DNA of 64,000 bases from Pseudomonas sp. St316 (GTDB lineage: Bacteria > Pseudomonadota > Gammaproteobacteria > Pseudomonadales > Pseudomonadaceae). Made by a program: the position numbers and the translations under genes. Location of the stretch: positions 434,001-498,000 of the forward strand of contig NZ_AP021901.1 in NCBI RefSeq assembly GCF_018325905.1. Reading direction: 5' to 3'. Numbering within the stretch: position 1 is the first letter of the stretch; every line of letters starts with the position of its first letter. The notes beneath the pieces were generated by a model, which was not told the origin of the DNA, did no database searches, and was given only the letters and a program-made list of their open reading frames with translations. This document shows, in pieces, positions 10,011 to 58,203 of the stretch.

Positions 10011-11168
10011 TCAACTTGCCGCGATCAACGCTTGTTCTTCCAACCATATTTCCTGAACGAACGGATCTGTAATCGCATAGATCCCATGTCCGCGACGCAT
10101 GATGATATTTTCGGCCACCAAGGCAATCACCACAGGTTGAATTTCTTCTATACGAACATCGCGACCCACGGCTTTTGAGTATTCTGCTGCCGCGTCAACG
10201 GAAAAAATGCCGCGAGCGTCCGCTGCTGCCGAGGCGATTTTATTGAAGATGGCTTGAGCCAGACTGCCCAATTGCTCAACCTTCTCAAGCTCGATGTTTG
10301 CCGCGGCGGAGCGCAGCGTACTGGCGATGACGGGCAAGAAAAGGTCTGGATTACCCTCTTGTTGCAAGACTTGCCTAAGGGCCTTGAGCATTTCTTCCGG
10401 GCGGTTACCCAGTGTATTGAAAGCTTGCGTTGCGACTTCAAGCGACGGCAGTTTGTGTTGGCTGACCGTCATTGCCAGGCGGTTCAGCAGATACTCGACA
10501 TAATCACCTTTCAAGACGGGATACGCCGTGGAAGTCGCGCCGGAAAAACCCTGGTTACGTTTTGCCGTGAGTTCGCTGACCTGCGCTCGGTGAGAGCCTG
10601 TGCCGATGAACAGAAAGTAACCCGGAGTATTGGGGCGAGGGTTGATGGCGTCACGAGCGGCTTTCAGCGCGAGCAACATCTGGTTCCCATCTTCAGAGGC
10701 GATGGCGTGTTGCACCTCGTCGACGATAAGCACCAGGTCAGTCTTGGCTTGATCGACAACTTCGGTGAATGCTTGCGCGAGCGTCGTGCCCCCAACATCA
10801 CCGACTCCTTCAAGTTTAAAACCGAACTTGAATCCTGCCGCGCCGATATCGACGCCGCCGACCCGCCTGAGTTTTTCAAGCAGCCCAGAGGTGGGGGTTT
10901 GTAATTCCTGTAGCGCTCTACGAATGGCGTCGTGCAGTAAGGTGGCCGGGTTGGCGAGGGTATTGCTCCAGAGGTCCACGTAAATAACGAGCGCACCCTC
11001 TTTTTCCAATGTCGGAATCAGGTCGCTGCGCAAAAAAGTCGTTTTGCCGGTTCTACGCAACCCGGACAGGAACAGGCCTGAACGCAAACCTTCGTCAAGA
11101 ACCCCCGGATTAAGAAGCTGATTGGCCATGCTTTCAGCCAGTTCCGGGCGCTGGAAAATGCTGCTCAT
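10011..11168 (-). CDS. AAA+/archaeal-type ATPase with C-terminal winged helix
   Basis: A 385-residue protein. Walker A is GLRRTGKTTFLRSDL near residue 40, Walker B is LVLIVDEVQHA near 145, and a sensor-1-like FLFIGTGSHR follows. The C-terminal ~80 residues (VIALVAENIIMRRGHGIYAI) look like a winged helix. This is the layout of STAND/ORC-like ATPases, often orphan genes in accessory DNA with proposed roles in defence or DNA transactions. The biological role is unknown. The gene is single, with REPs of opposite orientation on each side, and a direct repeat in its promoter region. Confidence 0.8.
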   Translation of the reverse strand: MSSIFQRPELAESMANQLLNPGVLDEGLRSGLFLSGLRRTGKTTFLRSDLIPTLEKEGALVIYVDLWSNTLANPATLLHDAIRRALQELQTPTSGLLEKLRRVGGVDIGAAGFKFGFKLEGVGDVGGTTLAQAFTEVVDQAKTDLVLIVDEVQHAIASEDGNQMLLALKAARDAINPRPNTPGYFLFIGTGSHRAQVSELTAKRNQGFSGATSTAYPVLKGDYVEYLLNRLAMTVSQHKLPSLEVATQAFNTLGNRPEEMLKALRQVLQQEGNPDLFLPVIASTLRSAAANIELEKVEQLGSLAQAIFNKIASAAADARGIFSVDAAAEYSKAVGRDVRIEEIQPVVIALVAENIIMRRGHGIYAITDPFVQEIWLEEQALIAAS

Positions 11169-11192
11169 GCAATTATTCTGTTTTATGGATTA

Positions 11193-11218
11193 GCCATAAT
11201 TATTGCTGAGCCATAATT
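11193..11218 (-). promoter_or_regulatory. Direct repeat upstream of the ATPase gene
   Basis: GCCATAATT occurs at 11193-11201 and 11210-11218, 17 bp apart, in AT-rich DNA 25-50 bp ahead of the ATG. It is a possible operator overlapping the promoter. Confidence 0.4.
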
Positions 11219-11280
11219 TAGCATAAGATTTTGCGCAGGCTGAAAGCGAAACGTTTGCTCGTTGATCAGTGGGACTCAAG

Positions 11281-11318
11281 GGCCGCTGTGCAGCCCAGCG
11301 GGAGCAAGCTCCCGCGCC
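11281..11318. repeat. Type-2 REP sequence, reverse orientation
   Basis: GCCGCTGTGCAGCCCAGCGGGAGCAAGCTCCCGC, the inverted counterpart of 9960-10001. Confidence 0.7.
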
Positions 11319-11335
11319 GTAACAGTGTCGATTGA

Positions 11336-12943
11336 TCAAATCTTGAACTGCTGCACCGAAGCCTGCATCGACCCCGCCGCATGGTTCAATTGATCCGCCG
11401 TTTGCGTCAGGGTGTGAATCGAGCGGGTATTCTCGCGGGACTGCTCGGCGATCGACTCCACCCGCTGGGCCATCTCGTCACTGGCTTTGGACTGCTCGGC
11501 AATGGTCTGGGAAATCTCCTCCACCACTTCGGCCGCATGCCGGGCGCCGGTGCGGATTTCGCTGATGGACACCCCGGCCTGCTGGGCCAGGTTGACGCCT
11601 TCGTCCACGCGACTGACGCACGCCTGCATGTTCGCCACCGCGTCCCGGGCGCTGGACTGGATGCGCTCGATCATCGCGGTGATTTCCTGGGTGGACTGGG
11701 TCGTGCGCGCCGCCAGGTTGCGCACCTCGTCGGCCACCACCGCAAAACCACGGCCCGCCTCACCGGCACGGGCGGCTTCGATGGCGGCGTTGAGCGCCAG
11801 CAAGTTGGTCTGTTCGGCGATGCTCTTGATCACCTGGATGATGGAATGAATGTCCTCGGACGATGCGTCCAATGCCGTGATCTTGCTGGATGACTGGTTG
11901 ACCACTTCGGCGATCCGGTTCATGCCTTCCACCACCCCGAGAATCACCTGGCCACCGCTGCTCGCCAAATGCTCGGACTGTGCGGAAATCGTCCGGGCGC
12001 TGTCGGCGTGCTGATGGATCTGGCTGATGTTCGCCATCATCTGTTCCATGCTCGCGGCCATGCTGGTTGCGCTCTGGGCCTGCTGATCGGCGCTGGACAC
12101 AATCTGCCGCGCCGTATCGCCCAGGTTCCGGGACGTACCGTGCAAGTCATCGCTCTGGCCACGAATCGTGGCGATCATCTGCCGCAGATTGGTCTGCATC
12201 TGCTCGATCACCCCCTGCAACTGACCCAGCTCATCCTTGCTTTGCGCGCCCATCGAGCGCTGCAAATCCCCTTGGGAGATCGCCTGGGTGTTGAGGATGA
12301 TCTTGTTCAGCGGCGTGAGCACAGCCTTGAGCAAGTTCCACGACAACAACACCAGCGCCACGCAGGTGGCCAGCAGCGTCAGGACGAGCCAGCGTTGGGC
12401 GCTTTGGATGCTGGTGTCCTGAAGCTCGCGAGACACCTGCGCCTGTTTTTCGATCAGCTCACTGACCGCCTCGTTGCGTACCTCCAGCGCCGAAAACGCG
12501 CTGTCGAACTCCGCCCGCAACGCCCGGCCGTCCTGAGCGCCGCCCAGTGCCTTGGTGATCACCTGTTTGGCCTTATCGATATACGTCTCGACCTGGGGCT
12601 TCAACTCGACAATCGCCTGGGCGACATCCTTGGGCAACTTCGCCTCCGCGTTATCGGCAATCACCTGGCGCATGCGCTGCGTATGCTCATCGAACGCATC
12701 CGTAACCTCTTTGCCCGCCGCCGCATCCCCCGGCGCCACCAGCAAGGCCGCCAGCACATCACCCCGAATGGCGTCATGCATCATGTCTGCCTCCATGTGC
12801 TTGCGCATGGCCGAGATACTGGTCTCATTCTGCGCCAGGGATTCGGTCATGGCGTGATAACCCCACAACCCGATACCGCCAAGCAACAGCGCAAAAGAAA
12901 GACTGACCAACCCCGAGCCTATGACCTTGGTGCGGATCTTCAT
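11336..12943 (-). CDS. Methyl-accepting chemotaxis protein
   Basis: A 535-residue chemoreceptor. TM1 is at about residues 10-32, a helical-bundle-like periplasmic domain of about 160 residues follows, and TM2 is at about 190-212 ([17 protein letters not shown]). A HAMP domain begins around [18 protein letters not shown]. The signalling domain carries the conserved hairpin tip [20 protein letters not shown] and [12 protein letters not shown], which contacts CheA and CheW. The ligand is unknown. There is no CheB/R-tethering pentapeptide; the C-terminus is SVQQFKI. It is transcribed alone. Confidence 0.95.
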
Positions 12944-15559: not shown

Positions 15560-15745
15560 TCGAATGAGAGCTGCCACGTTCGTTCTCAGGCGAATGGGTG
15601 GCAGCTGTGCGCAGGCTGAGAAACCGGAGATACAGGAACCCGGCAGACCCGAAGGTCTCCCACGCACAGCCGCCATTGCACGGAATGCGGACATAAAAAA
15701 ACGCCGCAAAACGTGGTTCGGGCGCTGTAGCGCCTGCATCTTACT
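15560..15745 (-). other. Possible remnant of a phage-type Ash/C4 antisense region
   Basis: On the minus strand an open frame of 79 codons (15500-15739) carries the phrase AAVRGRPSGLPGSCISGF and LRTNVAALIRYGS. This resembles small Ash-family proteins encoded over C4-type antisense RNAs in P4/P1-like elements. The plus strand of the same DNA is also open. The resemblance is from memory only. No promoter is evident, and it may instead be an RNA gene. Confidence 0.25.
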
Positions 15746-15794
15746 CGGGTTCTCAGGCCCGGTCGCTGAATTGGCAGCGACGTTCAGAGAGTAG

Positions 15795-20443: not shown

Positions 20444-20718
20444 GGGTCAGACCACGGTAATCGGATAGGTCATCTCCGCATCTTTACAATGCCAACCCTC
20501 GCTTGGTTGAATCGCACGGAAGCGGAGGCAGTGCGGGTGAGGTGTTTTTAGCGCTCCCAGCTTTGCGCTTTGCGGGTATAGGTAACGGCCTCATCGCGAG
20601 CAAGCTCGCTCCCACAGGTTTTTCAGGGTGTGGACGAAAAGTGAACACCCCAGAAACAACAAAGCCCCCGCATTTCTGCGAGGGCTTCGTTTTGTATGGT
20701 GCGGCACCAGGAGTCGAA
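20444..20718. repeat. Left copy of a ~275-bp direct repeat, ending in a tRNA-Thr fragment
   Basis: Matches 29969-30244 with about nine substitutions and one deletion. It contains the same half REP (20593-20615), the same terminator-like hairpin (AAGCCC...GGGCTT) and, at 20697-20718, the 3' end of the tRNA-Thr gene with one C missing. Homology stops inside the T arm of the tRNA. It marks the left border of the 9.2 kb operon block. Confidence 0.9.
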
Positions 20719-20913
20719 TAGAAAAGTAAGCACCTGTTTTACAACGTAATTACGCTGATTTATTTCTATCCCTACGATTATCCTAATCAAGTCGCAGGTG
20801 TTCGCTAGGTTCGACGGCATCACTCAATACAAGCGAATAGCTACAGGATTGGCAAGATTGACGCTGGAGCGTAGCCACATCAGCAGAGTTCGATTCTGTC
20901 GTTAAAAAAATCG

Positions 20914-20941
20914 TTGACGTAGCTCGAAAGGTCGGTATAAC
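20914..20941 (+). promoter_or_regulatory. Sigma70 promoter of the amide operon
   Basis: TTGACG (20914-20919), 16-base spacer, TATAAC (20936-20941). The predicted start near 20948 gives a leader of about 125 nt before the first gene. Confidence 0.65.
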
Positions 20942-20984
20942 TTCCATCAAATAGGTCGCCTTTTCTTGTCAGAAATCGCAGACC

Positions 20985-21002
20985 CTCAGCAATATTGCTG
21001 AG
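20985..21002 (+). promoter_or_regulatory. Leader hairpin 1 (candidate ANTAR target)
   Basis: CTCAGC-AATATT-GCTGAG, six perfect pairs around a six-base loop (two further A-T pairs could form). It is 8 nt ahead of a second small hairpin at 21011-21023 (GGCT-ATAGA-AGCC), whose 3' arm overlaps the terminator stem. The loops do not perfectly fit the A1/G4 hexaloop rule for ANTAR sites. Confidence 0.45.
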
Positions 21003-21021
21003 TACATATCGGCTATAGAAG

Positions 21022-21062
21022 CCCCTGATTTGCGTGAATAGCGCAGTCGGGGGTTTTTTTTT
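21022..21062 (+). terminator. Intrinsic terminator in the operon leader (attenuator)
   Basis: CCCCTGA...TCGGGGG with an inner TGCG/CGCA stem is followed by nine T. The first gene begins 13 bases after the T run and its weak ribosome site (GGAAA) adjoins it. A terminator here would block the operon unless read through, as in the P. aeruginosa amiE leader. Confidence 0.75.
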
Positions 21063-21074
21063 GGAAAAATTTAA

Positions 21075-21971
21075 ATGTCGACTTTGAAATCCTCTGACGA
21101 AACCCAAGAATTTCCGAGCACCACGGTGGCAGCCGTACAAATGGAGCCACGAGTGGGCTGCAAGGCTGAAAACCTGGAAGTGTCGCTGCACCTGATAGCC
21201 GAAGCGGCCAGCGCCGGTGCGCAGATCGTTGTACTGCCCGAATTGGTCAGCAGCGGGTATGTCTTTTCCAGTCGTGAAGAGGCCTTTGAACTGGCGGAAT
21301 CCGTACCGGCAGGCATCAGCACCCAGGCGTGGGTAGACGCGGCCCGCCAGCACAACGTTTACGTCATCGGCGGCGTTGCCGAACGGGTGGGGCACAAGCT
21401 TTACAACGCTGCCGTCATGGTCGGCCCCGAAGGTTATGTGGGGACTTATCGCAAGCTCCATCTATGGGGTGACGAACATCTGTATTTCGAGGTCGGCGAT
21501 CTTGGTTTACCGGTGTTCCATACGCCTTTTGGCCGCTTGGCGATGATCATCTGCTATGACGGCTGGTTCCCGGAGGTCTATCGGCTGTTGGCCATGCAAG
21601 GCGCAGATATCGTCTGCATGCCAACCAACTGGGTACCCATGCCGGGACAGGGCAACGGCGCCATGATCATGGCCAATACACTGGCCATGGCCAATGCGCA
21701 CGTCAACGGTCTGAACATCATTTGCGCTAATCGCGTAGGCACCGAACGCGGTCAGCTCTTTGTGGGTAACAGCATCATTGTCGGCGCCGACGGTTGGCCA
21801 TTGGCTACCCCAGGCAGTGCTGACCTCCAGCAAATACTCTACGCCGACATCAATCTGAAGGCGTCCCGTCAATCCCGGCACCTTACGACGTTCAACACGG
21901 TCCTGCGTGACCGCCGCACCGACATCTACGACCCCATGCTAGGCACCGGCTGGCAGCTACCTCGCTACTAA
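21075..21971 (+). CDS. Nitrilase-superfamily carbon-nitrogen hydrolase (probable amidase)
   Basis: A 298-residue protein with the full Glu-Lys-Cys triad: Glu in VVLPELVSSGY, Lys in YRKLHLWGDE and Cys in MIICYDGWFPEVY. It lacks a signal peptide, so it acts in the cytoplasm on an amide, carbamoyl compound or omega-amide, releasing ammonia. It is not the 346-residue aliphatic amidase AmiE; length and motifs fit the broad amidase/N-carbamoyl hydrolase branches. It is first in an operon with an importer, an asparaginase and AmiC/AmiR-like regulators, so its substrate is probably the imported compound. Expression likely depends on readthrough of the leader terminator. Confidence 0.88.
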   Translation: MSTLKSSDETQEFPSTTVAAVQMEPRVGCKAENLEVSLHLIAEAASAGAQIVVLPELVSSGYVFSSREEAFELAESVPAGISTQAWVDAARQHNVYVIGGVAERVGHKLYNAAVMVGPEGYVGTYRKLHLWGDEHLYFEVGDLGLPVFHTPFGRLAMIICYDGWFPEVYRLLAMQGADIVCMPTNWVPMPGQGNGAMIMANTLAMANAHVNGLNIICANRVGTERGQLFVGNSIIVGADGWPLATPGSADLQQILYADINLKASRQSRHLTTFNTVLRDRRTDIYDPMLGTGWQLPRY

Positions 21972-22010
21972 CCCCCCTTATCTACAATAAAAAATATTGA
22001 GGATACTCAC

Positions 22011-23174
22011 ATGAAATCCACTTATCCCCTCATCCGCATTGCCGTTCTTGCCGCTACAGCACTCGTAGCAACTCAGGGACATGCCGCTGAACCGATCAAG
22101 ATTGGTGTCGCGGTGGGGTTGTCAGGCGCCAATAGTGTCGTGGCACCGGCTGTAGTCCAGTCCTCAGAACTCGCTGTGGAGCAGATCAACGCCGCCGGTG
22201 GAATCCTCGGTCGCCCGGTGCAGTTGGAGATTGTCGATGATGCTTCCGGCGCAATAGGTGCACAGAAAGCCTTTGATACGCTGGTGTTGGAAAAGAAAGT
22301 AAACGCCATTATCGCGATGGAAAGTAGCGCCGCGCGCAATGCCGCCTTGCCGGTTATTTCCCGGGGGCGCGTGCCCTATATCTATACCTCGTTCTATGAA
22401 GGCCGTTCTTGCAATAAGTGGATGTATGTCAACGGTTGGGTACCAGAACAGCAAGTTGCCCCCGTAGTGGATTACTTCAGCCAGAAACTCGGGGCTAAAA
22501 ACTACTTTCTTGTCGGTAGCGATTACGCCTTTGGCCGGGGCATGCTGAAGTTTACTAAAGCGTACATTGAGCAACACGGCGGGAAGGTCATCGGTGAAGA
22601 GTACCTGCCGATGGACGGGAGTGACTGGACCGCCGTTATTTCAAAAATTCGCTCGACGCAACCTGACGCGCTTATCAGTGCCACAGCAGGTGGCGCACCT
22701 AACGTCTCATTGGCCAAACAGTTGAAAGCAGCGGCGCTGACACTGCCTTACGGCAACCTGGCCATTGACGAAGGCACCGGCAAGACCATGGGGGATGTCG
22801 CAACAGGCATGTACATGTCGGCTTCGTACTTGACCAGCATCGACACACCGGAAAATAAAAAATTCCTGAGTGACCTCGGCCAGAAGTTTGCCGGGAACCT
22901 GTCCACGCCAAACGAACTGTCCGAACCGCAATATGAAGCCTTCTTCCTCTACAAGGCCGCGGTGGAAAAAGCCAACTCCATCGACTCCGCGGCGGTCGTA
23001 GAGGCGCTGAACGATGTCTCGATCGTCGGGCCACGTGGCGTTGTGCAGATGAATGCCAGCCGTCATACCCCACTGGCCATGCGCCTGGGCCAAATACAAA
23101 GCGATGGTTCTATTCGCATTCTTGAAACCCAAGAAGGAGTCAGCCCAGGTATTCAATGCCCGAATTTGAAATAG
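22011..23174 (+). CDS. Periplasmic binding protein of a branched-chain/urea/amide-type ABC importer
   Basis: A 387-residue type-I binding protein. The signal peptide is at residues 1-25 (IAVLAATALVATQGHAAEP), and the mature protein opens IKIGVAVGLSGANSVVAP. It has the amide/urea-binding look of FmdD/UrtA/AmiC relatives: ESSAARNAALPVISR, YTSFYEGRSCNKW, and DYAFGRGMLKF. It is clearly related to the cytoplasmic AmiC-like protein from 27582 in this operon, so transporter and sensor probably see the same or similar ligands. A 39-bp gap separates it from the amidase. Confidence 0.9.
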   Translation: MKSTYPLIRIAVLAATALVATQGHAAEPIKIGVAVGLSGANSVVAPAVVQSSELAVEQINAAGGILGRPVQLEIVDDASGAIGAQKAFDTLVLEKKVNAIIAMESSAARNAALPVISRGRVPYIYTSFYEGRSCNKWMYVNGWVPEQQVAPVVDYFSQKLGAKNYFLVGSDYAFGRGMLKFTKAYIEQHGGKVIGEEYLPMDGSDWTAVISKIRSTQPDALISATAGGAPNVSLAKQLKAAALTLPYGNLAIDEGTGKTMGDVATGMYMSASYLTSIDTPENKKFLSDLGQKFAGNLSTPNELSEPQYEAFFLYKAAVEKANSIDSAAVVEALNDVSIVGPRGVVQMNASRHTPLAMRLGQIQSDGSIRILETQEGVSPGIQCPNLK

Positions 23175-23232
23175 TCCATTGCTTGATTACTAAGTAACGC
23201 TTCACGTTGCATTCTCCCCGGAGGGAGACGTC

Positions 23233-24066
23233 ATGGTGTTAATTCTAGATATAACAACAACAATAGCCATGCTGTTCATTGTTACTGCGGGCCTGATGAT
23301 GATTTTCGGAATAATGAAAATCGTCAACTTCGCCCATGGTGCCTTGCTGACAATGGGAGGGTATGCGGCGTTTGTCGTGACCCAACTGGGATGGAGTCCC
23401 TGGCTTGCGTGGCCGTTGGCTCTCGCGACCGGAATGATCGTTGGCGCGATCATCGAATACTTGATTGTTAGGCCACTCTATAAACGTCCTCTGGATGCCA
23501 TCCTGGCAACCTGGGGGCTGGGTATCGTGATCGGTCAGCTGATCATTCTCGCCTTTGGCCGGGACGTGAAGTTTGCAGACGTGCCCCTGACAGGAACCTG
23601 GTCGCTGGGTGGAACGGATTACTCCGCCTATCGATTGCTGCTGATTCCCTTGGCACTCGGCCTGTGCGCTTTGCTGACGGCGCTACTCAACGGGACCCGC
23701 TTCGGTGTCAAAACCCGCGCCGTCATCATGAACGAGGAATTGGCCAGTGGCCTGGGCATCCATGCCGGGCGCATACGCTTCATTACCTTCAGCCTGGGCG
23801 CGGGCCTGGGCACATTGGCCGGGGCCTTGATTAGTCCGCTTTCGAGTATTGACCCAGGCATGGGGATTATCTGGCTGGTTTCTGCCTTCATGCTCGTCAT
23901 GGTCTCCGGGCATTCGATGCCCAGCCTTATCGTGACTTGCGCGGTATTTGGTGCGTGCCAAGTTATCGTGAGCACCTATGCGAGCCCGGTACTCGGCGGA
24001 CTCACGATTGCCGTGTTGGCGGCGTTGACCTTGCGTATTCGTCCAAAGGGGTTCGCACATGACTAA
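23233..24066 (+). CDS. LivH-type ABC permease
   Basis: A 277-residue inner membrane permease with about eight hydrophobic helices. The family signature is the LMMIFGIMKIVNFAHGALLT region and the EAA-like loop GLGIHAGRIRFITFSLGAGL. It forms the translocation channel with the LivM part of the next protein. A good GGAGGGAG ribosome site precedes ATG 23233. It overlaps the next gene by eight bases. Confidence 0.92.
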   Translation: MVLILDITTTIAMLFIVTAGLMMIFGIMKIVNFAHGALLTMGGYAAFVVTQLGWSPWLAWPLALATGMIVGAIIEYLIVRPLYKRPLDAILATWGLGIVIGQLIILAFGRDVKFADVPLTGTWSLGGTDYSAYRLLLIPLALGLCALLTALLNGTRFGVKTRAVIMNEELASGLGIHAGRIRFITFSLGAGLGTLAGALISPLSSIDPGMGIIWLVSAFMLVMVSGHSMPSLIVTCAVFGACQVIVSTYASPVLGGLTIAVLAALTLRIRPKGFAHD

Positions 24067-25870
24067 CACTACGTTGCAGGCGGCAAACCCCCAATCCACG
24101 GGCTCCAGTCGTCAGGGAGCATGGGGCCGTTCGGGCGTGCTGTCTTTGATCGCCATCGCATTGCTGGTCGCTGGCCCATGGATTTTCGACAGCTACGTTC
24201 TCAACCTGCTGATCAAGGCCTTTCTGTTTGCGATCGTCGTTATCACGGTGGATGTGCTGTGGGGCTATACCGGATATCTCACCTTTGGGCAGTCGGCGTT
24301 TTTTGGTATCGGTGCGTATGCCGCAGGCTTGGTTTTTACTCACTTTGGCCTGTCGCCTGGCTCCATTGCTATCGCCATCGGGCTCGCGCTTGTCGTCCCG
24401 ATGGTGGTTGCAGGGCTGGTGGGGTGGCTGTCCTTCTACCGGGGCGCCTCGCCGTTTTTTGCCACGGTTATCTCGCTGGTGTTGCCCATCGTAATGACCC
24501 AGTTGCTGCTGTCCGGTGGGGAGTGGACGGGCTCCAGTTCGGGCCTGACCGGCTATGACACCTTCGACTTGTCGCTCAATGCCTGGTACTGGATCGCCGG
24601 GAGTGGCGTGGCGCTGATAGGGCTTTTCGCCTGGCTGTTCGTGCGCAGTGATGCCGGGCGTGTGCTGGCGTCGATACGTGACAACGAGTCCAGATGTGCG
24701 TACCTGGGGATCAACGTCCCGAACATCAAAATCCTTCTGCTGATCGCCACTGCGGCGATTACAGGGATCGCAGGTTTTAGCTACGGTGCTTTCAGTGGCG
24801 TGGTGGCGCCCGAGTTGTCCGGTTTCGTCTTGGGTACCGAGCTGATCATCTGGGTTGCGCTGGGTGGACGCGGCACGTTGTGGGGGCCCATGGCGGGGGC
24901 GATTCTGATTAATGTCGCAACGGCCTATCTCGGCAGCCGCATGCCGTTTTTGTGGCAACTGATCCTCGGCCTCTCTTTCGTGCTGGTGATCGTCTTGCTG
25001 CCGCAGGGGATCGTCCCGGCTCTGCTCAAGCCCCTCGGTTTCGGTGCACCTTCGCGGCGAGTACCGGCGCTGGTTGAACGTGAAGGGAAAGCGGTTCCCG
25101 AATCGGATGGCGTGCCTGCGCTTCTAATGGAGGACGTCACCAAGAGTTATGGTTCGCTCAAGGTACTGCAGGGGATCAACCTCAAGGCCGAGGCCGGTGA
25201 TCTGGTTGGATTGATTGGCCCCAATGGTGCCGGTAAAACAACGCTGATGCGGTGCATGAGCGACGGGGCTGACCGTACATCCGGGACGGTGCATCTGTGC
25301 GGCAACGATATCCGTCGGCTTCCGGCTGAGGCCTGCGTCCGTTTTGGTCTCGGGCGCAAATTTCAAAATGCCAATATTTTCGAATCCCTGACCGTCGCCG
25401 AGTGTCTGCGTATGGCCGGAACCCTTCACGAACGACCCTCGTTTTTCACTCGGGCGGATACGTTGGCCTTGCCATCCTATGCCTTGGACGTTCTGCGGGT
25501 TACCGGGCTGGATAACATGCTGGACGTGGTCGCTCGAGACTTGTCGCACGGTGAACAGCAAGCGCTGGAACTGGCCATGGTGCTGGCCCTGGAACCTCGT
25601 ATCGTGCTGCTCGACGAGCCTACCGCAGGGCTGACAAAGACCGAACGCACGCAAATCGGTGTGGTGCTTTCCATGCTCGCAAACCGCTACAAGTTGTGCT
25701 GCCTGCTGGTTGAACACGATCTGGATTTTGTGGAACAGATCGCTACCCGAATCGTGGTATTACATCAAGGGACGATGGTCATGCAGGGCACTTTCGAAGA
25801 AGTCGTCAACTCGGACTTGGTCAAGACGATTTATGCCGGGTCTGCACTTGCTCCACAGGAGGTCGCATGA
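24059..25870 (+). CDS. Fused LivM-type permease and LivG-type ATPase
   Basis: A 603-residue fusion. Residues 1 to about 325 are a LivM-like permease (VDVLWGYTGYLTFGQSAFFG, and VALGGRGTLWGP near its end). Residues about 355-600 are a complete ABC ATPase: Walker A GPNGAGKTTLM, signature DLSHGEQQALELA, Walker B IVLLDEPTAGLT and H-loop LVEHDLDFV. The two parts are separate genes in the E. coli Liv and most Urt systems, though such fusions are known in proteobacteria. Here no stop or frameshift separates them. The fusion fixes one ATPase to one permease; the other ATPase follows with a four-base overlap. Confidence 0.9.
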   Translation: MTNTTLQAANPQSTGSSRQGAWGRSGVLSLIAIALLVAGPWIFDSYVLNLLIKAFLFAIVVITVDVLWGYTGYLTFGQSAFFGIGAYAAGLVFTHFGLSPGSIAIAIGLALVVPMVVAGLVGWLSFYRGASPFFATVISLVLPIVMTQLLLSGGEWTGSSSGLTGYDTFDLSLNAWYWIAGSGVALIGLFAWLFVRSDAGRVLASIRDNESRCAYLGINVPNIKILLLIATAAITGIAGFSYGAFSGVVAPELSGFVLGTELIIWVALGGRGTLWGPMAGAILINVATAYLGSRMPFLWQLILGLSFVLVIVLLPQGIVPALLKPLGFGAPSRRVPALVEREGKAVPESDGVPALLMEDVTKSYGSLKVLQGINLKAEAGDLVGLIGPNGAGKTTLMRCMSDGADRTSGTVHLCGNDIRRLPAEACVRFGLGRKFQNANIFESLTVAECLRMAGTLHERPSFFTRADTLALPSYALDVLRVTGLDNMLDVVARDLSHGEQQALELAMVLALEPRIVLLDEPTAGLTKTERTQIGVVLSMLANRYKLCCLLVEHDLDFVEQIATRIVVLHQGTMVMQGTFEEVVNSDLVKTIYAGSALAPQEVA

Positions 25871-26574
25871 ACGGTGCCACATTGGAACTGAATTCAGTCA
25901 CGAGCGGTTACAGGGCGTCCGTCGTCCTACGGGATATGTCGTTCAAAGTCGCGGCCGGCGAAGCGGTCGCATTGCTGGGCAAGAACGGCATGGGCAAGAC
26001 GACGTTGCTCAAGACCATCATGGGGTACCTGCCCAAGAAACAAGGCACTGTTCAAGTCAACGCCTGTGACATTACCCGACTGTCGCCTCATCGAGTCGCA
26101 CAAGTAGGTATTGCTTATGCGGCTCAGGAAAAAGCGCTTTTCACCGAACTGAGCATCCGGGACAACCTGCGTATGGGGCTCGAGAAAGACGCGTTGTTCG
26201 ATGAGCGTTTCGCTGCCATAGAATCCGTGTTCCCGGTTTTCAAGGACCGTCTGAAGCAGTACGCCGGCACGCTGTCGGGAGGTGAGCAAAAAATGCTGCT
26301 GGTGGCGCGCGCGTTGATGATGCGCCCCTCCATCATTTTGCTGGACGAAATCACTGAAGGCTTGCAGCCCTCGGTGATTGACCGGATCGCTGTCGCACTG
26401 GTGCACGAGCGGCAACGCCACGGCACGACCCTGCTGCTTATCGAGCAAAATGTGCCGTTCGCATTGAAGGTGGCGGATCGATACCTGGTGCTTAAACAAG
26501 GTGAGATCGAAGAGGAAGGCGACGCCCGCGCGCCGGGTGCTACCGAAGCCATTTTCAACCATCTGAGGGTGTGA
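25867..26574 (+). CDS. LivF-type ABC ATPase
   Basis: A 235-residue ATPase. Walker A is GKNGMGKTTLLK, the signature is LSGGEQKMLLVARALM, Walker B is IILLDEITEGLQP and the switch His position reads LLIEQN, the Gln/Asn form usual in LivF proteins. It pairs with the ATPase domain of the preceding fusion to power uptake. Start and stop overlap both neighbours (ATGA upstream, GTGA downstream), so the five genes from 23233 are tightly coupled. Confidence 0.92.
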   Translation: MNGATLELNSVTSGYRASVVLRDMSFKVAAGEAVALLGKNGMGKTTLLKTIMGYLPKKQGTVQVNACDITRLSPHRVAQVGIAYAAQEKALFTELSIRDNLRMGLEKDALFDERFAAIESVFPVFKDRLKQYAGTLSGGEQKMLLVARALMMRPSIILLDEITEGLQPSVIDRIAVALVHERQRHGTTLLLIEQNVPFALKVADRYLVLKQGEIEEEGDARAPGATEAIFNHLRV

Positions 26575-27581
26575 CGCTTATGGCCCTGTCTAGCTCTGAC
26601 GACCTTCCGTTGTGCCTGTTCATCGCAACAGGCGGAACAATTGCCATGCAAGTTGACCCTTCGACGTCAGCCCCGATACCTGCGTTGTCGGGCAGCGACT
26701 TGATCAAGGTCGTTCCTGCCATCGCAAAGATCGCGCGGCTCGAAATCAACAACCTGTCCAATGTTCCGTCAGTCGAAATGGGGCCGCAGCGCTGGGTACA
26801 GCTGCATCAGATCATTGAAGCCGCGTTGGCCCGTCAGGATATCGCGGGTGTGCTGGTGTCACACGGCACCGACACCCTTGAAGAGACCGCGTGGTTTCTC
26901 GACTTGACATTGACGTGCCGCAAGCCTGTTGTGCTTATCGGTGCTCAACGCAATGCATCCGAATCGGACTTCGACGGGCCACGCAACCTGATGAGCGGTG
27001 CCAGGGTCTGCGTTGAGCCTGAATCTTCGGGCAAGGGCGTGATGGTGGTCCTGAACGATCAGATCAACGCCGCACGGGAAGTCAGCAAAACCCACACCTC
27101 GGACGTTGAGTCGTTCAACTCGGGCGACGCCGGTTTTCTCGGAAGAGTGGACGGCGATACGGTCATTTTTTATCGCTCATCCTGTCGTCGACAATACTTG
27201 TCGCTGGGGCGAGACAGCTTGCCTCGCGTTGACATCGTAGCTATGTACGCCGGCGCCGACGCCTCCTCGTTGAACGCTGCCGTGCAGGCGGGCGCCAGGG
27301 GGATCGTCATCCAGGCGCTGGGGGCGGGAAATGTGAATGCCCAGGTGTATGCAGCCATTTCGCAGGCGATCGACGCCGGTATCACGGTGGTCGTTGCCAC
27401 CCGCGTACCTCGTGGTCGGGTCAGGCCTCTCTATGGCTTTGCCGGGGGCGGCAGTACTTTGAAAGAAGCCGGTGTCATCTTCGCCAATGACCTGAGTCCG
27501 CAGAAAGCGAGGATATTGTTGATGTTGGCTATCCAAAGCCTCAGGTCCGCAACCGAACTACAAGACATTTTTGATCAATAG
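26571..27581 (+). CDS. Asparaginase-family amidohydrolase
   Basis: A 336-residue protein from GTG 26571, or 333 from ATG 26580. It has the two Thr motifs of bacterial asparaginases: FIATGGTIAM near residue 20 and VLVSHGTDTLEETAWFL near 100, the second also holding the catalytic Asp. No signal peptide is present, unlike periplasmic type II enzymes, so it works on imported substrate. It should hydrolyse Asn, Gln or a related beta-amide to the acid and ammonia. It starts inside the livF stop. Being coupled to importer and regulators, it probably finishes what the amidase begins or widens the substrate range. Confidence 0.88.
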   Translation: MTLMALSSSDDLPLCLFIATGGTIAMQVDPSTSAPIPALSGSDLIKVVPAIAKIARLEINNLSNVPSVEMGPQRWVQLHQIIEAALARQDIAGVLVSHGTDTLEETAWFLDLTLTCRKPVVLIGAQRNASESDFDGPRNLMSGARVCVEPESSGKGVMVVLNDQINAAREVSKTHTSDVESFNSGDAGFLGRVDGDTVIFYRSSCRRQYLSLGRDSLPRVDIVAMYAGADASSLNAAVQAGARGIVIQALGAGNVNAQVYAAISQAIDAGITVVVATRVPRGRVRPLYGFAGGGSTLKEAGVIFANDLSPQKARILLMLAIQSLRSATELQDIFDQ

Positions 27582-28742
27582 GTGAGCGTCATGCCAAGCA
27601 CCAAGACAGCAGTCACTAAAGATCAGGGGTGGCCTATCGGCATCTTGTACTCGCGCTCGGGTGCTACCGGTGTCACCGAGTCCGAACATTTTTTTGGTAC
27701 TGCGCTGGCGATCGAGGAAATAAACTCCCTGGGTGGCGTCCTGAATTTGCCGTTGATTCCAACCGCATATGACCCGAAGGGGTCTGCGGAAGAATACCGA
27801 CGCTTGACCGGCAAGTTGCTGATCGAAGATGAGATCAACGTAATTTTTGGCTGTTCCCGATCTTCCAGCCGAAAAGCGGTGCTGCCGCTCATCGAGCGCC
27901 ATAACGCGTTGCTCTGGTATTGCTCGTTCTATGAAGGGTTCGAATATTCACCAAACATCATTTATACCGGCGCCGTACCCAATCAGAACAGCATTCAACT
28001 GGCCGCCTACCTGTTGCAAAACAAGGGCACCCGGTTCTTTTTGGTGGGCGCGGACTACATCTATCCGCGTGAATCCAATCGCATCATGAGGGACGTCGTT
28101 GAACAATACGGCGGCGAAATTGTGGATGAGGTCTACCTGCCCATCGACGCAGGCGTAGAGCAGCTCAAGGACGTTTTGAATGAAATCCGCGAAGCCCAGC
28201 CGGATGTTGTTTTCTCGACCCTGGTCGGACAGTCGGCCCGGTCTTTCTATCAGCTGTATGGCGAGCATGGGCTAGATCCCAAAAAAATGCCCATTGCCAG
28301 CCTATCCATGACCGAAGAAGAAATCCGTTTGATCGGGCCGCAACTGTGTGAAGGCCACATCACCGCCGCCACCTATTTCGGCTCGCTGCGCAACGACAGT
28401 AATCAACGGTTCATTGAGCTTTGGCGCACACGATTCGGTGATCGGCCAACCAGTACCTGGTCGGAAATGGCCTATTCCCAGGTTCACCTGTTTGCGCGTG
28501 CTCTGGAGCGAGCTGGTAGTCTGGACAGGCGCAAATTAGTCGACGCTGTACACAAGGTGAAGTTCGCTTCGCCAGAAGGGCCGATAGCGATTGATGCGGA
28601 AAATAACCATTGCGCCCTGACGCCCCGGATCGGCATCTGCCGCAGTGATGGGCAATTCGACGTCGTATGGGAAGGTTCGGGGCCGGTCAAACCCGATCCT
28701 TACCTCTCCACTTTCGGCTTCTCTGAGTTTTGGTTGAGGTAA
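27582..28742 (+). CDS. AmiC-like ligand-sensing negative regulator
   Basis: A 386-residue protein with the periplasmic-binding fold but no signal peptide, as in P. aeruginosa AmiC. Strong AmiC-like stretches are SSRKAVLPLIERHNALLWY, YEGFEYSPNIIY, APNQNS-like VPNQNSIQLAAYLL and DYIYPRESNRIMRDV. AmiC holds AmiR inactive until an amide binds. GTG 27582 starts directly after the asparaginase stop; ATG 27591 is an alternative. The AmiR-like gene follows after four bases. It is homologous to the operon's own transport binding protein, so sensor and importer share ancestry. Confidence 0.93.
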   Translation: MSVMPSTKTAVTKDQGWPIGILYSRSGATGVTESEHFFGTALAIEEINSLGGVLNLPLIPTAYDPKGSAEEYRRLTGKLLIEDEINVIFGCSRSSSRKAVLPLIERHNALLWYCSFYEGFEYSPNIIYTGAVPNQNSIQLAAYLLQNKGTRFFLVGADYIYPRESNRIMRDVVEQYGGEIVDEVYLPIDAGVEQLKDVLNEIREAQPDVVFSTLVGQSARSFYQLYGEHGLDPKKMPIASLSMTEEEIRLIGPQLCEGHITAATYFGSLRNDSNQRFIELWRTRFGDRPTSTWSEMAYSQVHLFARALERAGSLDRRKLVDAVHKVKFASPEGPIAIDAENNHCALTPRIGICRSDGQFDVVWEGSGPVKPDPYLSTFGFSEFWLR

Positions 28743-28746
28743 CGCC

Positions 28747-29355
28747 ATGAGTTCCAGCCTTCGCCGTCTCTATGAAGATTTGCGCAGCATCTGCGTTGCG
28801 TTTGTTTATCCCCCTGGGGATGACCGCGATATTGTCATGCAGCAACTGAAAAGAATTGGCTGCCGCGTGAAGATCGTCTGGCCATTCCCCTCAGAGCCGC
28901 CTGCGGACGTCGACGTCATTCTCTTTCAGATTACGCAGGATCTGGAAGGCAATAAGATCTGGTCGGGCGCCTCCGTCAACGCGGCACTCATCGCGCTTTC
29001 CGACTACGAAAGCCCGACCATCTTGAAGTTGTTGCTCGATACGCGCGCTCACGGAGTGATTTCAAAACCGTTTCGATCTTCCGGAATTCTTAGCACGCTG
29101 GTACTGGCCAGAGCCTCGTACAGCTACCAGGAACGCTTGCAGGGGAAGATCGACAAACTGGAGTTGACCATAAAATCCCGTCGACAGATCGAAAAAGCCA
29201 TTCGGGTGTTGGTCGAACGTCAAAACCTGACCGAGACTCAGGCTTACGAACACATGAGGTCGCGGGCAACCAAGCTGCATGTAACCGTCGCCGAGGTGTC
29301 CGGGATGATCATCGAGGCCCATGAGGCCATGGAACGGCTTGGTTTGAAGCTTTAG
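28747..29355 (+). CDS. AmiR-like antiterminator with ANTAR domain
   Basis: A 202-residue protein. The N-terminal pseudo-receiver (PPGDDRDIVMQQLKRIGCRV; no proper phospho-Asp site) is followed by a coiled coil (about 120-150) and a C-terminal ANTAR domain of three helices (IEKAIRVLVERQNLTETQAY, then EHMRSRATKLHVTVAEVSGM). It matches P. aeruginosa AmiR throughout. Such proteins bind paired leader hairpins and stop terminator formation. The operon leader at 20948-21062 has the right layout to be its target. It is the last intact gene of the block. Confidence 0.93.
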   Translation: MSSSLRRLYEDLRSICVAFVYPPGDDRDIVMQQLKRIGCRVKIVWPFPSEPPADVDVILFQITQDLEGNKIWSGASVNAALIALSDYESPTILKLLLDTRAHGVISKPFRSSGILSTLVLARASYSYQERLQGKIDKLELTIKSRRQIEKAIRVLVERQNLTETQAYEHMRSRATKLHVTVAEVSGMIIEAHEAMERLGLKL

Positions 29356-29383
29356 CTCTGGCGCGCCGCGATCCGTTTGCACT

Positions 29384-29401
29384 CGTTGTAACGAGTGTCT
29401 A
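29384..29401 (+). promoter_or_regulatory. Inverted repeat after the AmiR-like gene
   Basis: ACTCGTTGTAACGAGT, about 25 bp ahead of the broken chemoreceptor gene. It may be a weak terminator or an operator. Confidence 0.35.
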
Positions 29402-29426
29402 CAGCCACTAAAACAAGAAAACCCCT

Positions 29427-29967
29427 ATGACAATGCTTGATTCCCGCCTCACGGGTGAGTCTCGGCCTGGCCCGATATCGCCTGGATTTTTTAAACGCGC
29501 TCTTGGCGACCTTCCGGTCGGCGGCAAACTGGCGTTTGGTTTTGCGCTCGCGGTGTTGGTAACCATTGGGGGTGATTGCTACGGCTTTAGTGAGTCAGCA
29601 CTCTCTGTTCAATGGCAATGAACAGCTGAACAAGGTCATGGTTATCAATGAACGGGTGCTGCGTGCCCGAGTCGCCGAAAACAGCTTTGCGTTGAGTCGT
29701 GCCGATGATCAACAGCAAGAGATCAAGCAGTCGCTTGCCGTCGCTGTCGAAACGCTTTGAAGCTTGCTGCTTGAACAGAAAACGTCTGATAAACCCTGGC
29801 CAGGGATGCTGGAGGCTATCGATCTCTATCAAGCGCAATTCGAAGCTCATGCCGGCCTGTTGAACGCTGGATATCTCGCGCAATTGGGGATGCAGGATCA
29901 GGCGCGTACGGCGGCAGAAAGCTTCGAATGGGTCTTTCTTGATCTGCTCGATAACTTGAGAGGAAAC
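29427..29967 (+). pseudogene. Chemoreceptor gene, frameshifted and truncated
   Basis: Reads as the N-terminus of a methyl-accepting chemotaxis protein: LPVGGKLAFGFALAVLVTIG (TM1), then periplasmic helices NEQLNKVMVINERVLRARVA and beyond. A run of five G at about 29570 carries one base too many. A TGA at 29758 replaces what is probably Trp, and homology ends where the right-hand repeat begins (GAAACGGGGTCAGACC). No TM2, HAMP or signalling domain remains. As the last gene of the amide block it probably once guided chemotaxis to the same substrate. Confidence 0.75.
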
Positions 29968-29968
29968 G

Positions 29969-30221
29969 GGGTCAGACCACGGTAATCAGATAGGTCATCT
30001 CCGAATCTTTACAATGCCAACCCTCGCTTGGTTGAATCGCGCGGAAGCGGAGGCAGTGCGGGTGAGGTGTTTTTGGCGCTCCCAGCTTTGCGCTGTGCGG
30101 ACATAGGTAACGGCCTCATCGCGAGCAAGCTCGCTCCCACAGGTTTTTCAGGGTGTGGACGAAAAGTGAACACCCCAGAAACAACAAAGCCCTCGCATTT
30201 CTGCAAGGGCTTCGTTTTGTA

Positions 30222-30244
<23 letters not shown>
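29969..30244. repeat. Right copy of the ~275-bp direct repeat, running into tRNA-Thr
   Basis: Partner of 20444-20718. It comprises the downstream flank of tRNA-Thr, a half REP (30118-30140), the tRNA's terminator-like hairpin and the first 23 bases of the tRNA 3' end. Confidence 0.9.
30187..30212 (-). terminator. Terminator of tRNA-Thr
   Basis: Read on the minus strand, AAGCCCT / AGGGCTT is followed by TTTGTTGTTT, ten bases after the tRNA 3' end. Confidence 0.6.
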
Positions 30245-30297
<53 letters not shown>

Positions 30298-57502: not shown

Positions 57503-57941
57503 GCACGGCTCCGCAGATGAAGATGAGCGGCATTCTACGCCGCAAACCGAGCGACGTTCGAAGCTAATGCCTCGGGTGATGGGCTCGTTGGCGATTTTCG
57601 GCATGATGGTCGGGCTGATGATCGGACGCCTGACCACGCCCGAACCGAGCGTACTGCAGCAGGTCGAGGTGATTGACGGTGGGGTGGTGGCTTGGTTCAA
57701 CACCGAACCCAAGCTGCACGGGGAGGTCATCGACGGCTCGGTAGCGTTGTTGTTCGAAGCAGAAGGTCGGCCGCAGAACGGCCAGTTGAAGTTCAACGGC
57801 AAGGACGTGAACTGGCGGGTGCGGTTGAGTGACAAGGGATTGTTGCTGACGTTGGTGGCGGCGCGTCCACTGCGCGGGGCGTGGACCGCCAGCGAGGTCG
57901 ATGATCGCTGGCGGCTGGAGGTCCGTCTCCAGGAGCAATAA
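57501..57941 (+). CDS. Hypothetical membrane-anchored protein
   Basis: A 146-residue protein from ATG 57501, or 124 from ATG 57567; neither has a strong ribosome site, and 57567 avoids overlap with trmL. One TM helix ([15 protein letters not shown]) is followed by a small beta-rich periplasmic part ([40 protein letters not shown]). Function unknown. It is divergent from trmL and followed by a stretch of tandem repeats. Confidence 0.7.
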
Positions 57942-57945
57942 AAGA

Positions 57946-58128
57946 GGGAATCCCCGGCCTGCCTGTACCAAGGTCCCCAAAACGGGAGGGCTTACCGCGA
58001 AGGTCCAGCCCTGGTGTAAAGAAGGGAAACCTTGACCTGCCTGTATCAAGGCCCCCAAAACAGTGGGCTCGATGAGCCCGGTATAAAATGGGGAATCCCC
58101 GGCCTGCCTGTACCAAGGTCCCCGAAAC
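57946..58128. repeat. Three imperfect tandem repeats
   Basis: A 38-base unit starting GGGAATCCCCGGCCTGCCTG and ending CAAGGTCCCCAAAAC occurs at about 57946, 58024 and 58091 (periods 78 and 67 bp). Copies 1 and 3 are near-identical; copy 2 has several changes. It is not REP-like and has no open frame of note. Confidence 0.8.
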
Positions 58129-58203
58129 TGGGTAGTGATTGAGTTATTGCAGGGGGCGTGCCAGGTTTAAATGGTTTGTCACAAAAAAATTGCTGATGCT
58201 GCG

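Follow-up and report, generated by a model that had tools for sequence, protein, structure and literature searches.

A stretch of 64,000 nucleotides of Pseudomonas sp. St316 (GCF_018325905.1, contig NZ_AP021901.1, positions 434,001 to 498,000; here called the window, with coordinates counted from its first base) holds an operon that starts with a structured leader RNA and ends in genes for a predicted AmiC-like ligand sensor and a putative AmiR-like antiterminator. Its eight genes lie on the plus strand between 21075 and 29355 and, with the leader, the operon covers 20914-29355. They encode, in order, a nitrilase-family carbon-nitrogen hydrolase of 298 amino acids (NIT; 21075-21971), a substrate-binding protein with a signal peptide recognised by eye (22011-23174), a UrtB/LivH-type permease (23233-24066), a fused permease and ATPase, UrtC-UrtD (UrtCD; 24059-25870), a UrtE-type ATPase (25867-26574), an asparaginase-family protein (ASN; 26571-27581), the AmiC-like sensor (27582-28742) and the AmiR-like protein (28747-29355). 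The first-pass annotation of this DNA had described eight genes on one strand, nearly all overlapping or a few bases apart, and the gene calls, the intergenic gaps (39, 58, -8, -4, -4, 0 and 4 bases, in gene order) and the Pfam matches bear this out. The limits that it had set, 20719-29968, instead fall where the two copies of a 259-bp direct repeat face the operon.

Pfam models back all eight proteins and NCBIfam models the first seven; the NCBIfam profile search returned no model for AmiR. NIT matches CN_hydrolase (PF00795, 180 bits), contains the Glu-Lys-Cys triad (LPEL, YRKLHL, ICYDGW) and has 1j31 and 3ivz as its nearest solved chains (194 bits). It reaches the cut-off of no named-enzyme (equivalog) model (best NF040852, 218 bits against 500), and its assignment as an AmiE of the P. 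aeruginosa type was rejected at 75.8 bits against a cut-off of 427. ASN (PF00710, 198 bits; PF17763, 119 bits) retains the catalytic Thr, Thr-Asp and Lys (ATGGTIA, HGTDT, SKTHT) and scores 282 bits with the type II asparaginase model TIGR00520, below its cut-off of 314; it differs from E. coli asparaginase II at the positions that we take to contact the amino group of the substrate asparagine. Neither hydrolase has a signal peptide visible by eye, as had been noted before, and the same holds for AmiC. The sensor matches Peripla_BP_5 (PF13433, 427 bits) and, among solved chains, 8tg1 best (298 bits), with P. aeruginosa AmiC, 1pea, at 283 bits. In AmiR both the AmiR_N (PF21332, 124 bits) and the ANTAR domain (PF03861, 42 bits) exceed their cut-offs, and 1qo0_D is matched at 88 bits. 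Both regulators thus resemble the P. aeruginosa pair of known structure, which we counted in favour of an AmiC/AmiR switch.

Upstream of NIT lies a leader (20914-21062, plus strand), overlooked in the first-pass annotation, with a conserved promoter, two hairpins (P1 and P2) and a terminator that shares bases with P2. The promoter is sigma-70-like (TTGACG-N16-TATAAC, 20914-20941) and the same arrangement, TTGAC(A/G)-N16-T(A/G)TA(A/G)N located 69-71 bases ahead of P2, is present in nine of nine Pseudomonas loci. P1 (20985-21002, loop AAUAUU) is the putative target of the ANTAR domain of AmiR. P2 (GGCU-AUAGA-AGCC, 21011-21023) is the putative antiterminator. The bases of its 3' arm (21020-21023) double as the first part of the 5' arm of an intrinsic terminator with a U run (21020-21062), which ends 12 bases ahead of the NIT start. 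The fold of the leader has a z score of -5.4. The order P1, linker, P2, terminator was tabulated for 17 leaders, and 18 leaders were aligned (alignment A1; eight from Pseudomonas, with L019 and L076 excluded as near copies). Across these 18, P1 is paired in 97.6% of cells with two-sided changes at four of its seven pairs, the terminator helix is paired in 98.8% with such changes at three of nine, the P2 stem is invariant and the arm shared by P2 and the terminator is always present. Taken together, P1 and P2 were paired in 98.5% of cells, compared to 87.8% in shuffles, with a covariation score of 0.295 (0.095 shuffled); P1 with the terminator scored 0.438 (0.203 shuffled), and none of 500 shuffles was as high in either case.

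The loops of these hairpins deviate from what has been reported for other ANTAR targets. According to the available part of PMC3369931, ANTAR proteins act through a dual-hairpin antiterminator in which both hexaloops carry A at position 1 (A1) and G at position 4 (G4). In our alignment the P1 loop has A1 in 17 of 18 leaders and G4 in seven, and the P2 loop has U1 in all 18 (A1 in none) and a G in all 18, one base later in Pseudomonas. The predicted RNA target thus departs from the published rule, which appears split over the two loops, and this looks new.

The distribution of the leader follows that of AmiR. A model built from 18 of the matched operons finds the leader in 29 of 30 AmiR-bearing operons (the window, L013-L020, L073-L080, L151, L156, L158, L184, L187, L226-L229, L231-L233 and L235); 12 of these did not contribute to the model and 11 of the 12 were matched, four of them being near copies of members. 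Among seven operons without an AmiR match in the fetched stretch (L148, L152, L154, L157, L185, L225, L234), none had a leader match; L188 (genome G914) was left out of this count, its contig ending inside UrtCD. Searches of whole genomes (E ≤ 1e-6) found no AmiR in G862, G914 and G950, and one elsewhere, at 31-32% identity, in G816, G907 and G1292. In its own genome (6.78 Mb) the leader is the only strong match (E 9e-20; next 0.02), and 13 whole genomes without the operon (G001, G002, G003, G005, G010, G022, G023, G029, G034, G805, G806, G808, G812) gave no match better than E 0.002. Weaker matches adjoin other AmiC/AmiR-Urt clusters in L083 and L084, two of them standing in tandem in L083 (13385-13590) directly after the distant AmiR of a different AmiC/AmiR-Urt cluster. 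Additionally, G667 has a second leader ahead of a urease operon (ureAB-C-G-D-F), and in L080 (3348-8578) a urease operon with an antiterminator leader of the same type adjoins AmiC/AmiR and the importer. On the Aminobacter SR38 plasmid (L231:966-19701) the genes that come after the leader are gcvT, a HupE/UreJ gene, formate-THF ligase, folD and a response regulator, and the importer, urease, AmiC and AmiR follow them on the same strand; this gene set hints at N-methyl groups or substrates of the N-methyl urea type.

All these data suggest that the locus probably serves to scavenge nitrogen from amides and is controlled through AmiC/AmiR antitermination. The antitermination itself is well supported by the sequence because the leader covaries and co-occurs with AmiR, and the proposal of AmiC/AmiR-type control in the first-pass annotation gains from a covarying leader in which antiterminator hairpin and terminator share bases. 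The genes, their order, the leader, its covariation and its co-occurrence with AmiR are what the sequence provides; from them we infer ligand sensing, release of AmiR by AmiC, RNA binding, transport and hydrolysis. Transcription would start just past 20941. Without ligand, AmiC would hold AmiR and most transcripts would end at the terminator (21020-21062). Once AmiC binds its ligand, AmiR would be freed to bind the leader hairpins and stabilise P2, whose formation would exclude the terminator through the shared bases, so that the polymerase could continue into NIT and on through the importer genes and ASN to the two regulators. A small amide-like molecule would then enter through the importer, and NIT and ASN could free ammonia from it or from its products.

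Several points weigh against this reading. A generic promoter and terminator scan reported neither the leader promoter, which it missed because it demands T as the last -10 base, nor the terminator. The leader shuffles leave kinship in place and the structure was drawn from the same sequences; kinship likewise remains in the association between leader and AmiR (Fisher's test, 8e-7, which treats relatives as independent). P2, being invariant, has no covariation of its own, so its support is conservation and the overlap with the terminator. Neither hairpin of the window fully follows the A1/G4 rule. Furthermore, the leader model misses L235 despite its AmiR and matches L233 weakly (24.9 bits), and AmiR is absent next to part of the operons of the clade, so that the core does not depend on the switch. 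These AmiR-less operons, together with AmiC/AmiR pairs that adjoin other gene sets elsewhere, are what one would expect if AmiC and AmiR controlled other genes and merely happened to sit at the operon end. We regard this as very improbable, as the presence of the leader follows that of AmiR and no other strong match to its model is found in the genome.

The combination of genes is not confined to this strain. All eight recur in the same order in each of the eight other Pseudomonas loci fetched (nine of nine with the window), with protein identities from 75% (ASN of L015) to 99.5%, so that the gene order is not due to chance. With AmiR as query, 37 of 398 genomes of the genus matched at E ≤ 1e-10, five of them (its own included) at an identity of at least 97%; in a sample of the phylum 22 of 398 genomes matched and nine, again counting its own, carry this operon type. 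Of 300 genomes from the order to which G667 belongs, 12 contain the UrtCD fusion (E ≤ 1e-120); a search for it in 289 genomes from the class of G685 found G685 alone. Ten distant AmiC/AmiR loci (L081-L085, L088-L092) were also inspected, and six have a full Urt-type set nearby in which UrtC and UrtD are separate; the joining of AmiC/AmiR to an Urt-type importer is thus general. The operon core also occurs in other Proteobacteria and on plasmids, where 57 records contain the UrtCD fusion, ten of which were opened. These occurrences and a similar operon described in the available part of PMC13209695 run counter to the earlier remark that this exact combination might be undescribed. A near-identical plasmid copy was sought and rejected, since the plasmid near search gave four Rhizobium records with one 57-base piece each. 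In the stretch of a Methylobacterium record, ASN was matched but the core was not. On conjugative Enterobacter and Klebsiella plasmids (L225, L234) a cluster of NIT, importer and urease without AmiC/AmiR adjoins transposase genes, and in Cupriavidus EM10 (L232:4867-6002 and 10725-11356) AmiC and UrtE are each matched in two overlapping pieces, as if frame-shifted.

The importer had been described as a full Liv/Urt-type system. It is a complete ABC importer, with a binding protein of the Peripla_BP_6 family (PF13458, 260 bits), permease domains (PF02653) in UrtB and at residues 47-310 of the fusion, and an ATPase domain (PF00005) at residues 370-523; by model scores it is Urt-type and not Liv-type. 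NCBIfam models favour Urt over Liv (UrtE 225 vs LivF 148, UrtB 178 vs LivH 46, UrtD 200 vs LivG 151 bits), and a Liv amino-acid importer was rejected because of these higher scores. Every Urt score falls under its curated cut-off (UrtA 231/493, UrtB 178/250, UrtC 174/296, UrtD 200/304, UrtE 225/286), which makes this importer a separate Urt branch. The AmiC column corresponding to Thr106 of P. aeruginosa AmiC, a residue that presumably has a role in the pocket of that sensor, is S in 19 of 29 proteins, D in seven and another residue in three, and by this spread the sensor is more variable than the importer. Indeed, the pocket segment YTSFYEG of the binding protein is present in 35 of 36 related proteins. 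Aligned to the urea-binding 8hic, with the UrtA pocket residues matched by spacing, the binding protein has E in place of W and F in place of Q, and E and F each stand in these columns in 35 of the 36 proteins. In Prochlorococcus UrtA, W120A bound no urea and mutation of Gln144 cut or abolished binding, as reported in the available part of PMC10392092. The replacement of both urea-contact residues suggests that the cargo is probably other than plain urea, and this would hold for the operons with urease as well.

The gene that follows UrtE is exchangeable. It is ASN in all nine Pseudomonas loci, and tblastn (own query proteins, E ≤ 1e-8), which together with reading of open reading frames (ORFs) was used for operon tails outside the genus, found ASN in none of 19 fetched operon stretches of non-Pseudomonas genomes. 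In 12 of these 19 the position is taken by a DUF1028 protein (G507, G816, G822, G826, G862, G903, G907, G914, G940, G950, G1292, G1320; five confirmed by Pfam, the other seven by tblastn at 61-91% identity), and in G461, G742 and G667 by an amidase-signature enzyme, FmdA and NIT, respectively. The gene was not recognised in G685, G610 and G557 by our queries and ORF reading, and the tail of G607 is cut off by the contig end. In several of the operons with DUF1028, NIT is accompanied by an amidase-signature enzyme. Among the ten opened plasmids, urease comes after UrtE in five (Enterobacter, Klebsiella, Paracoccus, Ancylobacter, Aminobacter) and lies upstream of AmiC in two (Comamonas, Cupriavidus), and an amidase follows UrtE in three (two Paraburkholderia, Rhizobium etli); the Aminobacter SR38 stretch gave no NIT match. 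This pattern, in which the core changes rather little and the hydrolase is swapped (asparaginase, DUF1028, amidase-signature enzyme, FmdA or urease operon), looks new. More tentatively, and at roughly one chance in three in our judgement, the core could represent an unnamed mobile nitrogen-scavenging module. Its importer would be Urt-like, with permease and ATPase fused and a pocket not made for urea; a nitrilase-family enzyme would usually accompany it, and often AmiC/AmiR, which would act on an ANTAR RNA of non-canonical type (A1 in one loop and G4 in the second). The hydrolase cassette of the module would act on the same imported amide or ureide.

These comparisons bear on what the importer carries. 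The earlier suggestion of an asparagine-like substrate is doubtful, as ASN is the replaceable part and the binding pocket is nearly constant. An operon for uptake of asparagine or a beta-amide amino acid, with ASN as the main enzyme, would agree with the retained catalytic residues of ASN and its presence throughout the Pseudomonas loci; we consider it improbable, because ASN is replaced in all examined relatives outside the genus, its presumed amino-group positions differ from those of E. coli asparaginase II and the binding protein is Urt-like, not of the amino-acid type. Uptake of beta-cyanoalanine, for successive action of nitrilase and asparaginase, was dropped on the same ground that the asparaginase is replaceable, and nothing in our data supports cyanamide, which was also considered. 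A simple short-chain amide system, analogous to the acetamide operon, with a broad-range importer and accessory hydrolases for different imported amides, is a candidate to which we would give roughly one chance in three. The acetamide-sensing AmiC is the nearest of the sensors to this AmiC, one relative has an FmdA-type formamidase and the available part of PMC13209695 gives an acetamide annotation for the operon of Klebsiella KOS9. Nevertheless, the score of NIT with the aliphatic amidase model is low (76 bits, cut-off 427), and the sensor pocket is unlike that of P. aeruginosa AmiC at the Thr106 column.

A further candidate cargo is a substituted urea or ureide that the cell would convert into urea or another simple amide; NIT would cut it first and the enzyme in the exchangeable slot (urease, asparaginase, amidase, DUF1028 or FmdA) would take the product. 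Urease is present in seven of the ten opened plasmid clusters and in G667, there with its own leader, the binding protein is devoid of the urea-contact W and Q of UrtA, and in Aminobacter SR38 the leader stands ahead of gcvT, formate-THF ligase and folD. On the other hand, urease is absent from the fetched stretches of other operons, the SR38 stretch has no NIT match, the pocket is interpreted from sequence alone, and we know of no nitrilase-family enzyme that releases urea. We hold this proposal to be less likely than not; it refines the amide-nitrogen scavenging interpretation and is compatible with it.

In the window the operon is flanked by the two copies of the direct repeat (20444-20702 and 29969-30227; 97% identical), the left one continuing into a short 3' piece of tRNA-Thr sequence and the right one running into a tRNA-Thr (TGT) gene (30222-30297, minus strand). 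Direct repeats that include a tRNA 3' end, as in islands at tRNA sites, are thus present, and ORF and family scans between them found the operon and one broken fragment only, with no integrase. This fragment, between AmiR and the right repeat (29430-29968), is a broken reading frame that by eye resembles the start of a chemoreceptor. Of 57 genomes searched, seven of the same genus (G002, G010, G016, G021, G029, G032, G033) have a second partial copy of the junction 3-12 kb away, and G005 has one at 0.6 kb. Inserts at the same site in L160-L167 carry a phage-type integrase, an OLD-like nuclease or a DEAD-box helicase, the integrase lying near the tRNA end in L160, L161 and L165. As judged from these junctions, the tRNA-Thr site is an insertion hotspot in the genus. 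The 259-bp repeat has no match in the eight other Pseudomonas loci (L013-L020), and a fixed tRNA-Thr location of the operon was rejected for this reason. Elsewhere in the window we noted a C4 antisense RNA with its a1/b1 target, a control RNA of P4-type phages (15594-15794, minus strand), and the nitrogen-regulated small RNA NrsZ (57931-58134).

The combination itself is not unique; what looks new is the modular arrangement, the splitting of the RNA rule over two loops and a functional lead for DUF1028. The textbook AmiC/AmiR RNA switch would be extended to whole import-and-hydrolysis operons, and the 18 aligned leaders allow a test of how loosely ANTAR proteins read RNA. We found no description of DUF1028 in openly licensed literature, which is weak evidence of absence; if the module is real, this family of unknown function would be an amide hydrolase, and its exchangeable position makes both the orphan DUF1028 and the diverged asparaginase branch testable as such. 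In addition, the association with urease on plasmids from Klebsiella, Enterobacter, Paracoccus, Ancylobacter and others suggests that bacteria of soil and waste water may draw on a nitrogen source that has possibly gone unrecognised, perhaps a substituted urea.

Among known systems, the P. aeruginosa amiEBCRS operon combines an amidase with AmiB, AmiS and the two regulators. The window shares with it an AmiC-like sensor, an ANTAR-type AmiR, a leader terminator overlapped by a hairpin and regulators downstream of the enzyme, and differs in having a full Urt-type ABC importer in place of AmiB/AmiS, NIT in place of AmiE, an added asparaginase and leader loops that deviate from A1/G4. With the UrtABCDE urea transporter it has the subunit types in common, and Urt models are its best NCBIfam matches, but the scores lie below the cut-offs, UrtC and UrtD are fused and the urea-contact W and Q are replaced. 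In openly licensed full-text literature, AmiR, AmiC and nitrilase together returned nothing (weak evidence of absence), and AmiR, AmiC and asparaginase matched only PMC13209695. The available part of this 2026 paper describes a plasmid operon of Klebsiella sp. KOS9 that contains amiE, amiC, amiR and four genes for an ABC transporter, and an amiE-fmdAB-urtABCDE cluster without amiC/amiR on the Pseudomonas veronii chromosome. Compared by description only, the KOS9 operon resembles ours in amiC, amiR, an amidase and the four transporter genes; its amidase is the acetamidase AmiE, and an asparaginase is not described in that part of the paper. The Klebsiella plasmid cluster that we opened (L234; NIT, importer, urease) has no AmiC/AmiR in the stretch and is therefore a different operon from that of KOS9. 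Closer relatives are found on plasmids of Paraburkholderia hospita and Paraburkholderia sp. PGU19 (L226, L227), which have the leader followed by NIT, binding protein, UrtB, UrtCD, UrtE, a further gene, AmiC and AmiR, with 73% (UrtCD) and 60% (AmiR) identity to the window; the further gene encodes an amidase-signature enzyme (PF01425, 232 bits in L226) instead of ASN, and ASN is matched at 35% some 3 kb upstream, on the opposite strand. Lastly, the leader resembles the ANTAR dual-hexaloop antiterminators of EutV, NasR and AmiR, as far as described in the available parts of PMC3369931 and PMC8934654, in its two hairpins, the second of which overlaps the terminator, and differs from them in a P1 mostly without G4, a P2 with U1 and, in Pseudomonas, a P2 loop one base longer.

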